A stretch of 64,000 bases of DNA. Origin: Shewanella sp. ANA-3 (GTDB lineage: Bacteria > Pseudomonadota > Gammaproteobacteria > Enterobacterales > Shewanellaceae). The DNA lies in the NCBI RefSeq assembly GCF_000203935.1, contig NC_008577.1, forward strand, positions 2,728,001 to 2,792,000, read 5' to 3'. This document shows positions 42,524 to 63,942 of the stretch, piece after piece; the stretch's first letter is position 1, and every line of letters starts with the position of its first letter. The notes under the pieces are model-generated. The model made no database searches, had not been told where the DNA came from, and was given only the letters and a program-made list of their open reading frames with translations. Position numbers and translations under genes: made by a program.

Positions 42524-43924
42524 ATGAGCATTGCATCGGTCGCTTCTGTATTTAAAGGTGAGCACGCAGTTGGTTCGACAGTCACAGTCCGTGGCTGGGT
42601 CAGAACCCGTCGTGACTCGAAAGCTGGCATCTCTTTTTTAGCTGTCTATGACGGCTCCTGCTTTAATCCTATTCAAGGTGTTGTGCCAAATAGCTTAGAA
42701 AATTACGACAACGAAGTGTTAAAGCTGACAGCTGGCTGCTCTGTGATCGTAACCGGTGAGATTGTGGAATCTCCTGGCGCTGGCCAAGCCTACGAGCTGC
42801 AAGTCACACACGTTGAAGTGACGGGTTGGGTCGAAGATCCAGACACTTACCCAATGGCGGCTAAGCGTCACTCAATCGAGCATTTACGCGAACTGGCCCA
42901 CTTACGCCCACGTACCAACATCATTGGTGCCGTTGCCCGCGTACGTAACTGTTTGTCTCAAGCGATTCACCGTTTCTACCACGAAAATGGTTTCGTGTGG
43001 GTATCTACACCGCTGATCACCGCATCAGACTGTGAAGGCGCGGGTGAAATGTTCCGTGTCTCCACACTGGACATGGAAAACCTGCCACGCACCAGCGATG
43101 GCAAAGTAGACTATGACAAAGACTTCTTCGGTAAAGAGGCATTCTTAACCGTATCGGGCCAGTTGAACGGCGAAACCTACGCCTGTGCCCTGTCAAAAAT
43201 CTATACCTTTGGCCCGACGTTCCGTGCTGAAAACTCAAACACCAGCCGCCACTTAGCGGAATTCTGGATGGTTGAGCCTGAAGTGGCGTTCGCGACCTTA
43301 AGCGATATCGCAAGCCTTGCCGAAGGCATGCTGAAATACGCCTTTAACGCCGTATTAGCTGAACGTATGGACGATTTACAATTCTTCGCCCAGCACGTGG
43401 ATAAAACCGTGATTGAGCGTCTGCAGTCTTTCGTATCGAGTGATTTCGCCCAGGTAGATTACACAGATGCAGTAGACATTCTGCAAAAATGTGGTCGTGA
43501 GTTCGAATTCCCAGTGTCTTGGGGTATCGACTTATCCTCTGAGCACGAGCGTTATCTGGCCGAAGAGCACTTCAAAGCCCCTGTGGTTGTGAAGAACTAT
43601 CCAAAAGATATCAAAGCCTTCTACATGCGCCTTAACGAAGACGGTAAAACCGTTGCCGCGATGGACGTGTTAGCCCCAGGCATAGGTGAAATCATCGGTG
43701 GTTCACAACGTGAAGAGCGTTTAGACGTGCTGGATATGCGTTTAGAAGAAATGGATCTGAATAAAGAAGATTACTGGTGGTATCGCGATCTGCGCCGTTA
43801 CGGCACAGTGCCACACTCAGGTTTCGGTCTGGGCTTCGAGCGTTTGGTGTCTTACGTAACGGGCGTATCGAACATCCGTGACGTGATCCCATTCCCACGC
43901 GCGCCACGCACTGCGAACTTCTAA
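42524..43924 (+). CDS. asnS: Asparaginyl-tRNA synthetase
   Basis: The 466-residue class IIb synthetase charges tRNA-Asn. The N-terminal OB fold binds the anticodon ([26 protein letters not shown]). The catalytic core has motif 2 in [25 protein letters not shown] and motif 3 in [29 protein letters not shown]. Length and end match E. coli AsnS. Monocistronic, with promoter and terminator. Confidence 0.97.
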
Positions 43925-60286: not shown

Positions 60287-60448
60287 AATAGCGTATTCAT
60301 GTTGCGAATAAGATGAATAAAGCTTAATTACGCCAAGGGAGTTTTAGCAGTAGACTCAATGAAGCGGTGCAGCACTAGCCCATCGTTTGACCAATATGAC
60401 AGAGTAAAAGGCTGGAGCTTACCAAGGCTAATCACAGAGGAGCTCAAG

Positions 60449-60658
60449 GTGTTTGATAACCCAACATTATTGTTATGGAGTTTAGTCTTTGGCCTCTTTG
60501 GTCTTGGCTTTTTCACCTACGGCAAGCGCCAAGCCGCCCCCATCCCTTTGGCCGTCGGCCTCACCCTGATGATTTACCCTTATTTTGTCACCAATCTCAC
60601 GCTACTTATCGCTATCGGCATCGCCCTTATCGCACTCCCCTATTTTGTAAGAATATGA
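60449..60658 (+). CDS. Small hydrophobic membrane protein
   Basis: The 69-residue protein starts with GTG, preceded by GAGGAG at ideal distance. Two or three membrane segments are seen (PTLLLWSLVFGLFGLGFFTYG, PLAVGLTLMIYPYF, LTLLIAIGIALIALPYFV), with the basic turn GKRQ between. The start is internal to a longer frame that opens at 60359 without a ribosome binding site. Function unknown. Confidence 0.65.
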   Translation: MFDNPTLLLWSLVFGLFGLGFFTYGKRQAAPIPLAVGLTLMIYPYFVTNLTLLIAIGIALIALPYFVRI

Positions 60659-60756
60659 TTTTAATATATGAAGCTCTAAAAACTAGGAATACGTTGAGAT
60701 AAGAAAAGAGAAAATTTTTGAGTGACGGGCAAACATGCTGTTCCTACGAATGAGTA
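60659..60756. other. AT-rich spacer before the inverted-repeat element
   Basis: No gene or clear signal seen. Confidence 0.3.
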
Positions 60757-60906
60757 AGCCATGGCATTTGCTCGACGACGCGCAGCGAGTCCATCCGTGG
60801 ATCTAGGGCCGCCCGTCTGATGTGAATGGATTCACGAATGCCGCGATGGCATTTATATCAAAAAACAGCCATGGAGCGGACGGTCGTCTCGCTAATCACC
60901 ATGGCT
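60757..60906. repeat. 150-bp element with imperfect terminal inverted repeats
   Basis: The ends AGCCATGG (60757) and CCATGGCT (to 60906) are perfectly inverted, and similarity continues inward for about 25 bases (TT-GC-GACGAC shared). An inner stem AATGCC / GGCATT is also present, and there is no coding capacity. It looks like a MITE or interspersed palindromic element, but I cannot count copies elsewhere. Confidence 0.45.
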
Positions 60907-61018
60907 CACCTGTTTAGCAGCGGCGTAATCTGTATGTTTTAAAGAAAATATGTGTCTCGTTTTGGGGTAAAAGTGAGTTAGATTCCTAACTATAATTTTC
61001 GAATTAAAACTTCTATTG

Positions 61019-61150
61019 AGATAACGCCGTGCTCAACGGCAGTTTGTAAGTCGTGGCTTTGTGGATTACTTTTGCGCAGCAAAACCACAAACCTGCGACT
61101 TACAAACTGCCCAGCGCACGCAGTGCGCGTATTGCAGCACTTTGTTATGT
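61019..61150 (-). repeat. attC recombination site of cassette B (132 bp)
   Basis: R'' is ACATAAC and R' is GTTATCT (minus strand). The L boxes GTGCTGCAA and TTGAGCAC pair with a single extrahelical G, the feature that sets strand choice by the integrase. Between them lies a 27-base arm pair (61038-61064 and 61085-61111) with two mismatches and a 20-base loop. Confidence 0.85.
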
Positions 61151-61151
61151 T

Positions 61152-61604
61152 CTATGACCAAACTAAGCCAACCTCAAAATTTTCAGTAGAACAACAAAAC
61201 AATAAGCTGCGACCATGACTACTCTGCAATGCAATTAGCTCCCTCATTTCTTCCAACGCATGAACCATATTCAAATAGAAGTCAGGCAATACAACTTTTC
61301 GTGGAACATCAATTTCGGATGCATTTACAAGGGCAAAATCTCCAAGTGAGAAGCTTCTGCCTCCATTTGCTTTCCAGTTCCCAGCTGACTCCAGTTCACC
61401 TTTTTCGATTGCTTTAAAAAAATATTTTTTCGTGAATTCATTGCTTGACATGACCGACCGTTTAGATGATTCAATTGTATCAATGCAAACTGTCGCAACA
61501 TGCGATTCATGATCATGGTAAAGAGCTATAGTGAATATATCCAAGTTTCTGGATTTAGCTTTACGTAAACCCTCATAAATAAGCTTTTTGAAATCTTCTT
61601 TCAT
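61152..61604 (-). CDS. Cassette-borne protein of unknown function (possibly DUF4303-like)
   Basis: The 150-residue protein has mixed alpha/beta character: FKKLIYEGLRKAKSRNLDIFTIALYHDHESHVATVCIDT, then FSLGDFALVNASEIDVP and a C-terminal LLFCCSTENFEVGLVWS. The overall pattern resembles DUF4303 proteins, but this is a weak impression. GGAG lies six bases before the ATG at 61604; an ATG at 61631 lies inside the attC boundary and lacks a binding site. The stop is two bases from the R'' box of attC, typical for cassettes. Codon use is more AT-rich than in the neighbours. Confidence 0.65.
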   Translation of the reverse strand: MKEDFKKLIYEGLRKAKSRNLDIFTIALYHDHESHVATVCIDTIESSKRSVMSSNEFTKKYFFKAIEKGELESAGNWKANGGRSFSLGDFALVNASEIDVPRKVVLPDFYLNMVHALEEMRELIALQSSHGRSLLFCCSTENFEVGLVWS

Positions 61605-61627
61605 ACGACTCCGATAGCGCCAATAAA

Positions 61628-61705
61628 ACATAACGCCCCAATAACCGGCGCGCGGCTTTTTGCGCGTCCGGCGCCGTAGGCGCGAAGTTGATTGGCTTGT
61701 TAGAG
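61628..61705 (-). repeat. attC recombination site of cassette A (78 bp)
   Basis: On the minus strand it begins CTCTAACAAGCC (R'') and ends GGGGCGTTATGT (R'). The L boxes CCAATCAAC and GTTATTGG pair with one extrahelical C. The centre is a GC-rich stem (GCGCC/GGCGC region). The stop codon of the preceding gene lies within R''. The form is close to class 1 integron attC sites. Confidence 0.88.
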
Positions 61706-62071
61706 ATCACCTTCTCCTCGAGTGATGTGATGAAACTCAACACACTCGTATGCTTTTGCGTACTCTCGGCACACGTTTGTCCACTGATGGTTAGCATAAA
61801 ATGCGATGATAATGCTTTTTACTGTCTGGTAGCCTATAGAGAATTCCTCCCGCAACTTATGCTCAAACTCATGCCAGTTGACGGCTTCTCCTGCTTCGAG
61901 TTTCTCATCGTACTTTTCAAAAACATCGTGTGCCCGGTTTAAATCGCTATCATCCCAGTCCATTTGGATTACTAGCGCCGGGATAGGATGCTCTCGATAA
62001 TCTACGCTTTCGGCAAGCATTTTTACGTGATAGCGGAGCTTATCGATTTGTTCTTGTAGCTCAATACTCAT
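61700..62071 (-). CDS. Second gene of cassette A, small soluble protein
   Basis: The 123-residue acidic protein starts with a helix (ELQEQIDKLRYHVKMLAESVDY), followed by ALVIQMDWDDSDLNRAHDVFEKYDEKLEAGEAVNWHEFEHKLREEF and a C-terminal helix pair. The layout slightly resembles DUF1878/YhaI proteins; the match is unproven. Its ATG overlaps the stop of the upstream gene (ATGA), with GGGGAAA as ribosome binding site, so both products are made together. Function unknown. Confidence 0.7.
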   Translation of the reverse strand: MSIELQEQIDKLRYHVKMLAESVDYREHPIPALVIQMDWDDSDLNRAHDVFEKYDEKLEAGEAVNWHEFEHKLREEFSIGYQTVKSIIIAFYANHQWTNVCREYAKAYECVEFHHITRGEGDL

Positions 62072-62541
62072 TGAGATTTCCCCTCTAGACGAAGATACCG
62101 CCCATTCAGTCTGGACACGGAATCCTGCACAAATGATTGAAGTTCAGAAGTAAGACGATTGCAGACCTCTTGGTCCGTCTCCGAACGAAGGGAGAGAAGA
62201 CGCATTTGGGCCTCCACAACTAGCCCACGAACATCAGCATCTGGTCCATCCAGGTCAATTTGCATTAACGCCGAATCAAATTGAGCTTGAATTGAATCAA
62301 TCAATGACACACGACCTCTCCCACGAGCGCTTGAAACCGGCTCAACTAAAAGTTTTCTGACTTCACCGAGAGTCCTTTCCAAGCTCCGACTAGCATTGGT
62401 CAGATTTAACCTCCGAATGTCTAGAGAAATCTGATCTTTGGTTTTCTTCACGCGAAGAGCAGCGATGAGCGTTACCCCCATGCTTAATATGGTAACCACC
62501 GTAGAGGCCAGAGAAATTGTTGCATCAGTTGATAGAGGCAT
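62068..62541 (-). CDS. First gene of cassette A, membrane-anchored coiled-coil protein
   Basis: The 157-residue protein has one N-terminal membrane helix (ISLASTVVTILSMGVTLIAALRV) and then a charged, mainly helical cytoplasmic part (KKTKDQISLDIRRLNLTNASRSLERTLGEVRKLL and SELQSFVQDSVSRLNGRYLRLEG). The start at 62541 is the first ATG wholly inside the cassette; in-frame ATGs at 62562 and 62577 straddle or precede the recombination point. It is coupled to the next gene by a 4-base overlap. No family recognised. Confidence 0.6.
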   Translation of the reverse strand: MPLSTDATISLASTVVTILSMGVTLIAALRVKKTKDQISLDIRRLNLTNASRSLERTLGEVRKLLVEPVSSARGRGRVSLIDSIQAQFDSALMQIDLDGPDADVRGLVVEAQMRLLSLRSETDQEVCNRLTSELQSFVQDSVSRLNGRYLRLEGKSQ

Positions 62542-62559
62542 AGTTCTTGTGATCTCTAA

Positions 62560-63093
62560 CATTCTATTCGTGTGCATGCGCGTTTACCTCGTTGGACCAG
62601 TGAAAGCGCGCACGGTTAACTTTCTGTATGCAAAGAACTTATCAGCTTTCTGGCAAATACACCATCTGGAAAAACGCGCATGCGCGTTTTACAACCCTAT
62701 TAACTAAAAGTATTACATTATAGTCAATTGATTTTATAGAGTTTTACTTGTTGAAGATGGAATTGGTGCGCACTGACTTCGTCTTAAAATCATACAAAAT
62801 AGCTAATTTTATATATGACTGTATACCCATACATTGTTAGTCGATTTCTGGTTGGGCCAAACTTAGGCAAATAGATAAGAATTTGTATGTCAGCAGGAGT
62901 GGGAATTTTCGATAGAACTAACGAGCCGAAACTCGTAATGGGGCAAAAAGCTTTTACCCGGATGAACAGTTCAATAGTCGTTAAGATTGCCATCATTACA
63001 GCTGTGATCTTAACAGGATGAACATTGTTCTAACTAACCTTCCCTACCCCACCTTACCTATCTGACTAAATAGGCTCAAACCAATCAACTCAA
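62560..63093. other. Non-coding flank beyond the cassettes, with repeated GCATGCGCGTTT
   Basis: No gene is supported here. A perfect 20-base palindrome, AAAACGCGCATGCGCGTTTT, lies at 62671-62690. Its right half (GCATGCGCGTTT) recurs at 62574-62585, 104 bases away and next to the cassette boundary. Whether this is an attI remnant, a degenerate attC or an unrelated repeat cannot be decided. The 68-codon frame at 62790-62996 looks random. Confidence 0.4.
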
Positions 63094-63942
63094 CTATTCT
63101 CGGCAGATAGTTATACGGCGAAGTGCAAATATGCCCAGTAGCGAAAGGATTAATAGGGATAAACTGCCACCACCGCTATAACCTTGTTTATGTTCAATGG
63201 TTGCAATATGTTCTTCTTTCACGCGGGTTTTAAAGCGGGCTAATTCGGCGTCTAAATTAGTGATCATATCGTTTACCGCGAGCTCAAAGCCTTCGGTGGA
63301 TTTTTCACGTAACACATTGGTGACGCTCACCGCGGTTGACGTGTCGGTAAGTTGATTAATACCGGGCGCTCTGAACAACATCTTTTGGCTGCGCATATCA
63401 AATACGGCGGTATCGACAAAGGTTTGGATCGCGTTTTCATTACCGGGCACCATATACATGCCGACTATAGTCCAATACAGCAGTGAAGCCTTATTCTCGC
63501 TGCTTTGTAACAGTTGATCGTAAGACACTAGCGCCATCACATCGACATCGTGCAAGCGGGCGACCTGCTGCAAGGTACTAAAACCTTTGCCATTTTTAAG
63601 GTAAGTGCTGGGGATTAATTCGATACGATCAATAAAGTCATATTTAACAAAGGATTGTTTCACTTTATCCAGCAAGGCGATTTGCGAGCTGCTATCGAGG
63701 GCTTCGAATTGCCAATGGGTGGAAGGTAAAAAGGCAATGCCGACCGTGATGGGAAGACGCAGCACAGGGATACTGGGTTGCTGCGCCTCACGTTGTTTAT
63801 CGTCGGGATAGAGATATTCAACCAGACTGCTGGACACCACATTTTTTTCGGTGGTGTTACCGTTGAAAAAGGCACTGCAACCACCAAGCAAAATGCTAAT
63901 CGATGCCAGCGCGCCCACAAGTGCTATGAATTTTGTCTTCAT
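63094..63942 (-). CDS. Rhombotarget lipoprotein (GlyGly-CTERM)
   Basis: The 282-residue precursor has a lipoprotein signal (GALASISILLGGCSA, Cys about residue 22). A soluble domain follows (VGIAFLPSTHWQF, LLDKVKQSFVKYDFIDRIELIPSTYLKNG, ARLHDVDVMALVSYDQLL, DTAVFDMRSQKMLF). The C-terminal tail is YSGGGSLSLLILSLLGIFALRR: a Gly motif, one membrane helix and arginines. This tripartite GlyGly-CTERM tail is the sorting signal cut by rhombosortase, a rhomboid protease. A lipoprotein carrying both signals fits the rhombotarget lipoprotein family. GGGAAG precedes the ATG at 63942. Confidence 0.85.
   Translation of the reverse strand: MKTKFIALVGALASISILLGGCSAFFNGNTTEKNVVSSSLVEYLYPDDKQREAQQPSIPVLRLPITVGIAFLPSTHWQFEALDSSSQIALLDKVKQSFVKYDFIDRIELIPSTYLKNGKGFSTLQQVARLHDVDVMALVSYDQLLQSSENKASLLYWTIVGMYMVPGNENAIQTFVDTAVFDMRSQKMLFRAPGINQLTDTSTAVSVTNVLREKSTEGFELAVNDMITNLDAELARFKTRVKEEHIATIEHKQGYSGGGSLSLLILSLLGIFALRRITICRE

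Follow-up and report, generated by a model that had tools for sequence, protein, structure and literature searches.

An integron platform lacking an integrase gene probably accounts for a two-cassette array in Shewanella sp. ANA-3 and recurs around its chromosome

The window, that is the whole 64,000-nucleotide stretch of the Shewanella sp. ANA-3 chromosome analysed here, contains two gene cassettes, read on the minus strand and enclosed by a left and a right arm (Table 1). The base-exact ends that the original prediction gave to both cassettes can be read directly from the sequence: cassette 1 starts with GTTAGAGATCAC, which pairs over 12 bases with GTGATCTCTAAC at the R'' side of its own attC site (GTTAGAG against CTCTAAC), and the start of cassette 2, GTTATGT, complements the R'' box ACATAAC of attC A. 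This copy of the unit currently contains these two cassettes and no others. Seven matches on the two strands of the window were returned by a finder that requires, in order, R'', a 3-6 nt spacer, L'' carrying one unpaired base, a middle part, L', a second 3-6 nt spacer and R', with full 8/8 pairing of the L boxes in attC A and attC B only; a looser form of the rule, as used for the genome stretches described below, added one further match (42747-42818). Both sites have the spacings AAC-3 nt-L'' and L'-3 nt-GTT, and within the paired L boxes each carries the single extrahelical base expected of it, C in attC A and G in attC B (in the plus-strand reading, which is the attC bottom strand). Their expected sizes and coordinates also agree with those found.

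Table 1. Coordinates of the features of the cassette array and its arms within the window.
Feature	Position (strand)	Length	Basis or remark
Left arm (attI and putative former intI promoter region)	62561..62949 (-)		outer end is the TTTTTGCCCCA motif, 62939-62949
LexA-like box	62819..62834 (+)		one mismatch, CTGT-N8-ACAT; offset 259 bp from junction
Shewanella-type attI	62561..62709 (-)		repeat copies, intI-linked copies, published motif; ends at recombination point GTT, 62558-62560
Cassette 1	61634..62559 (-)	926 bp	starts TTAGAG after the G of the attI GTT; R'' of attC B is CTCTAAC
Cassette 1, first ORF	62068..62541 (-)	about 157 aa	starts at in-cassette ATG; no family
Cassette 1, second ORF (DUF1878 family)	61700..62071 (-)	123 aa	overlaps first ORF; Pfam PF08963
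attC B	61628..61705 (-)	78 bp	attC geometry finder; covariance model
Cassette 2	61025..61633 (-)	609 bp	starts TTATGT; R'' of attC A is ACATAAC
Cassette 2 ORF	61152..61631 (-)	159 aa	no family; ATG within recombination site
attC A	61019..61150 (-)	132 bp	attC geometry finder; folding versus shuffles
Right arm	60963..61018 (-)		ends in TTTTACCCCA (60963-60972); end placed by eye

The first reading frame of cassette 1, a longer form of which runs to 62577 and would start inside attI, has no Pfam match over cut-off and no PADLOC match. Its second frame matches PF08963 (26.7 bits, cut-off 23) and has relatives in six plasmid records, at identities of up to 47.5% and with four of them annotated as DUF1878. 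For the cassette 2 frame, searches returned no Pfam family, no PADLOC match and no plasmid relative of its protein.

The two attC sites were supported by different lines of evidence. When the two sites were folded, attC A was far more stable than its shuffles (z -7.3 and -7.6), whereas attC B was no better than shuffled sequence (z -1.5 and -1.0). A covariance model built from 25 trimmed attC sites of other platforms, mostly of the same genome and with the two window sites left out, recovered attC B (36.2 bits, E 6e-7) but missed attC A, even with filters off. Because attC A is longer than any site that the model returned, the longest being 90 bases, this miss is read as a limit of the model and not as a rejection; rejection of both sites by such a model, which the original prediction had named as grounds for abandoning the cassettes, was not observed. 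The finder itself demands pairing, so that pair covariation among the sites it finds is partly circular. An Rfam search of 60300-63100 gave only five sub-threshold microRNA and snoRNA look-alikes. The two or more attC sites that characterise a CALIN are thus present by geometry, with model support for attC B and none for attC A.

On its left, cassette 1 directly adjoins a block which, by its sequence alone, is identified as the attI component of an integron, because it is repeated at cassette junctions, precedes intI in relatives and contains a motif that has been printed as Shewanella attI. The full-length block lies just 5' of intI in 6 of the 30 intI loci of the genus, with a partial match in another 5, and is present at the intI integrons of the relatives G015 and G110. 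The published motif is AAACGCGCATGCGCACTAATAAAATGTT, which PMC9892861 prints as a Shewanella-type attI, one base off that of S. oneidensis. The earlier statement that no attI is visible in the window was therefore wrong. A scan of 62540-63093 for the cassette promoter Pc, which covered sigma-70-type promoters and no other type, found no site in the arm.

The attI block occurs at 18 places in this genome, 17 of which have a readable junction; the junction triplet is GTT in 16 of these and GCT in one, with different sequence beyond each. An unrelated mobile repeat, devoid of any recombination function and ending at cassettes by chance, would also be dispersed and seem mobile, but the coincidence of its inner end with the recombination triplet, the changing sequence beyond and the presence of the same block before intI leave this reading with next to no credibility. 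In the 18 genome stretches scanned, of which 17 span 8 kb and one spans 10 kb, and which include the surroundings of the junction-less copy, the cassette strand bears 23 strict attC sites and the opposite strand bears none. By these scans attC is found on the cassette side of 13 of the 17 junction copies, comprising 11 with a convincing strict site and two recognised through the covariance model (L195, with a doubtful strict match only, and L198, with a weak model match at E 0.026). No convincing attC was returned for the remaining four, L189, L196, L199 and L200; in L189 a site was seen by eye, and in the other three none was found by scan or eye.

Cassette ends at these junctions obey the same rule as in the window: the junction 7-mer and the R'' box of the first strict attC are perfectly complementary in 10 of the 17 copies, with agreement by eye at the model matches of L195 and L198. 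In a looser test, which accepts any matching R'' with L pairing of at least 7 within 4 kb, 11 of the 17 junctions pass, compared with 6 of 204 arbitrary GTTR starts, a control set that may include true internal cassette starts. Across the whole genome the covariance model found at least 18 attC sites (150 of 1669 first-look candidates being scored), nine of which lie outside the training set and are independent. Sixteen of the 18 sit on the cassette side of an attI copy, and the remaining two (4631781 and 2526453) immediately precede a right arm, and no attI was found in the roughly 14 kb upstream of them. Judged from these sites, most attI copies in the genome are occupied platforms. As a separate observation, the stretch 4627000-4646000 (L332) carries a prokaryotic Argonaute gene, after which come attC and a right arm, beside a type I-F TniQ, both genes being recognised by PADLOC; with neighbouring tns and cas genes named by eye, this group apparently lies inside a CRISPR-associated transposon.

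Integration at attG sites is one way in which cassettes come to lie away from intI. Off-target insertion at such a non-classical genome site, with the flank being ordinary chromosome, is a known route to integrase-less cassettes (PMC12444791, in its accessible text), and it would fit a genome with no intI over cut-off. An attG target is neither attI nor attC, whereas the target here is the attI repeat, present at 17 junctions of this genome and before intI in relatives. Cassettes are remote from intI in both cases, but the site in the window is an attI and not a chance genome sequence, and off-target insertion is accordingly considered very improbable.

Beyond attI and cassettes, the unit has recognisable outer parts and extends in the window over about 60963-62949. 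Left ends begin at TTTTGCCCCA or similar sequence (by eye), and when 25 copies are compared with one from Xenorhabdus, the common stretch extends to 360-396 bp from the junction in 19 and stops short of this in 6. Right arms from 17 loci mostly diverge after TTTTGTCC or AAAATGTCC (again by eye), some of them running into a second repeat. In comparisons with related genomes, homology breaks near the right end, at 60947-60969, in G098, G110 and G042, and restarts near the left end, at 62940-62955, in G045, G082 and G110. The right arm, GTTATCTCCATAGAAATTTTAATCCGAAACT and variants thereof, is present in the stretches of 9 of the 16 other copies, where it directly follows a strict attC in L188, L192 and L194 and an attC seen by eye in L186, L189 and L197, the site before it being unclear in L193, L196 and L199. 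It is found in other genera as well, and closes the array of an intI-bearing integron in G015. The outer portion of the left arm is found on the 3' side of intI in G061. For the LexA-like box, sought with a LexA-type pattern, the intI loci of G061 and G015 have a perfect counterpart at 260 bp from the junction, and in 8 of the 16 other copies one with a single mismatch lies at 259-261 bp; the background, counting boxes with at most one mismatch on either strand of the window, is 52. The simplest reading of these shared parts is that the window unit was an integron that lost intI and then dispersed.

A direct TTTTGYCCCA-like motif is seen by eye at both ends of the unit, and a direct core of this kind would suit site-specific integration of the unit; no recombinase acting at the unit ends was identified. 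MITEs and integron mobilization units are non-autonomous mobile elements, and the present unit resembles them in lacking an enzyme of its own and in being dispersed in many copies, but it differs in the direct motif at both ends, with no inverted ends shown. A MITE is defined by terminal inverted repeats and target duplication; at the ends placed by comparison and by eye a direct-type motif was seen, and no empty site was available from which a duplication could be read. Comparison of related strains for empty sites yielded none: in 17 orthologous stretches (from G015, G024, G039 and G098) the flanks met in no case, the right flank not being reached in L310 and L311. The queries were drawn from the flanks prepared, 5 of 16 on the left and 0 of 9 on the right. 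G002, considered as an empty locus, was rejected as it has unrelated DNA at that place. Next to the right arm, here and at several other copies, lies a palindromic repeat (60720-60947 in the window) containing GCGAGACGACCGTCCGC, which occurs once in the window; it looks like a separate repeat beside the unit.

The observation that no intI is in view extends to the complete genome, in which no gene exceeds the family cut-off (TIGR02249, best 80.6 bits against 265); judged by size, the two top-scoring places are probably XerC and XerD. The left arm itself has no significant IntI match (best E 1.7). The locus thus has no nearby integron integrase, as is characteristic of a CALIN, and does not contain the intI gene of a complete integron. 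The original prediction had left the choice between an attC cluster without an integrase and the far end of a longer array; the first part stands, the cluster being by definition a CALIN, but the second does not, the array being whole, from its own attI to a conserved right arm. Six of the 13 copy-bearing genomes counted below have no intI over the cut-off (G000, the window's own genome, and G039, G042, G070, G083, with a broken intI, and G100). In relatives that retain the gene, its open frames start late in G015 (L202) and G098 (L203), and it is late-starting or split in Shewanella sp. HN-41 (L259), as if the integrase were decaying in these relatives while the platforms remain. With no intI over cut-off in G000 and late-starting frames in G015 and G098, the platforms may be idle now. 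In G061 a 287 aa tyrosine recombinase gene of IntI-like or Xer-like type (L096 236-1099), with similar genes at 2657766, 2322470 and 2277688, stands right across the attI junction at three of its four places, and may be part of an IS91-like element.

Comparison of the same locus in related genomes gives a further view of the cassette boundaries. In 6 of 14 related loci (G015, G098, G039, G061, G075 and G094) homology breaks at 62554-62558, adjoining the predicted boundary of cassette 1, with other DNA beyond, and in the other eight it breaks elsewhere; the region is hence not an ordinary conserved operon devoid of cassette boundaries, the outcome that had been named as fatal to the cassette interpretation. 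G015 keeps cassette 2 and has, in place of cassette 1, a different cassette with matching start and R'', which makes the separate origins earlier suggested for the two cassettes plausible. G098 has three attC sites, which belong to other cassettes. In G039 the DNA beyond is again different and begins with a segment whose start and R'' agree over 12 bases by eye, although the strict attC search was negative at this locus in both G039 and G042. The coding part of cassette 2 is identical to that of G015 at 466 of 467 bases, compared with identities of 93% for attC A, 92% for the adjoining 0.7 kb of flank and 94-95.5% for the wider flanks. This excess over attC A and flank suggests recent movement of the cassette, with ordinary recombination being possible too.

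These comparisons also bear on the possibility that the copies are dead remnants of duplicated integrons, their cassette differences reflecting old losses and not exchange. The missing intI, its late-starting, split or broken state in several relatives, the imperfect LexA-like box and the 4 of 17 copies for which the scans gave no convincing attC all favour such a fossil, but cassette ends are still exact at 10 of the 17 junctions, sister species hold different cassettes at one locus, and the near-identity of the cassette 2 coding part suggests recent movement; on balance, the fossil reading is considered less likely than not. A tree of 29 arms, 28 of them different (the G015 arm at the window's locus entering twice) and with 10 of 25 inner branches starred, groups the window arm with that of G015 (100/100) and next with a Xenorhabdus copy (98/94). 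Among the other arms at the window locus, that of G094 clusters with a G098 copy located elsewhere in that genome (99/93), those of G061 and G075 fall together (100/99) and that of G039 is unresolved. Because of these groupings across loci, the unit at the window locus has apparently undergone replacement or insertion on more than one occasion, the alternative being exchange between copies. At this locus G024 (L072) and G045 (L148) carry an ATPase-like gene (by eye) between about the same two edges, and the locus may thus accept other elements too.

The unit is widespread. The window segment 62561-63060 is matched in 71 of 117 genomes sampled from the genus, and in 16 genomes, chosen and not randomly sampled and including the window's own, copies were counted as 17, 17, 13, 12, 11, 11, 10, 10, 10, 7, 4, 4 and 3 in 13 genomes (129 in total) and as none in three. 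The own-genome count of 17 in this survey includes the junction-less copy at 2614409 and omits a short junction copy at 4131362, and a weak 66-base match (E 0.03) was left uncounted. In public collections, scanned with records near the window's genome left out, the junction motif was found in 61 stretches, 51 of Shewanella and 10 of other genera (Vibrio, Pseudoalteromonas, Marinomonas, Maribrevibacterium and Xenorhabdus), the Marinomonas and Maribrevibacterium stretches being matched by the short motif alone. When five viral stretches are added, 44 of the 66 have a strict attC at the cassette side and 10 contain pieces of intI.

The attI block is also present in 19 plasmid records. In the IncC plasmid pN069_1 of Enterobacter hormaechei, fosG and an acetyltransferase gene stand at attI, each followed by a strict attC, the start of the first cassette differing from R'' at one of 7 bases; the gene table, which is incomplete, lists no integron integrase within 8 kb and does list another recombinase. 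On a Moellerella plasmid the trimethoprim resistance gene dfrA1 lies beside a Shewanella-type attI (L331 5513-5983), and the similarly incomplete gene table lists no integron integrase within 6 kb. Three genes abut the left end of the platform in pN069_1 (L298 8870-11332), encoding a tyrosine recombinase of 634 aa and proteins of 132 and 184 aa with no family, the 184 aa gene ending near an insertion sequence; the end sequence where they abut is similar by eye. As a general mover of the platform this trio was rejected, having matches in 10 of 117 genomes, one of them close, and none in G000.

The usual description of an integron is a single platform that has one intI and one attI. The chromosomal integron of Shewanella, with the S. 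oneidensis type of IntI and attI, was reportedly described by Drouin et al. in 2002, and the window shares with it the attI motif, the style of attC and the order attI, cassettes, right arm (as in G015), but there a single platform has intI, whereas here many copies are without it. Integrase-less cassettes in Shewanella (PMC9229058) and one CALIN with its own attI (PMC9892861) are already in print, as far as the accessible text of these papers goes. The latter concerns the Shewanella prophage M16-3, which carries an attI-headed CALIN and a complete integron; this is likewise an intI-less cassette cluster starting at a Shewanella-type attI, but it is a single case in one prophage, and the accessible text describes no genome-wide family. 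PMC9229058 reports CALINs in 59 Shewanella genomes and 115 SALINs in 41 genomes, a number it calls peculiar. These too are many scattered cassettes without integrase, but no attI or common repeat at those sites is mentioned in the text accessible to us, and the attI repeat found here could explain many of them. Our literature search found no report of attI platforms that are dispersed in some 3-17 copies per genome, share their arms and occur in other genera and on plasmids as well.

Taken together, the array in the window is, with good probability, carried by an integrase-less integron platform, a unit derived from a Shewanella integron minus intI and copied to about 17 chromosomal sites, where it would serve as a landing site for cassettes. 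A whole Shewanella chromosomal integron would have lost intI, leaving the attI-bearing left arm and the short right arm, and the resulting unit would have been copied around the chromosome. Joining of a folded attC to attI by the integrase is the established rule of integrons. By this rule an integrase supplied in trans would join the folded attC bottom strand of a circular cassette to attI at GTT; cassettes would be added next to attI and later exchanged, the platform supplying only the site. Such an IntI, resident once or visiting, would have been lost from the genome or have come from elsewhere, and the unit itself may move, perhaps by site-specific recombination at its TTTTGYCCCA-like ends. 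More tentatively, and at somewhat less than even odds in our view, the unit could be a mobile non-autonomous integron of less than 0.5 kb that spreads by site-specific recombination at its TTTTGYCCCA-like core and so seeds many attI sites, is served by one integrase in trans as an integron distributed across the entire chromosome, and is exported to other genera and to resistance plasmids.

If the proposed platform is correct, the genome has acquired many scattered capture sites, its integrase being absent or located elsewhere, and one enzyme could reach many places in the chromosome. This offers a concrete cause for the abundant scattered cassettes reported in Shewanella. It also shows that attI can be detected without intI across genera, including on enterobacterial plasmids beside a fosfomycin or trimethoprim resistance gene, where a search keyed to intI would overlook it.
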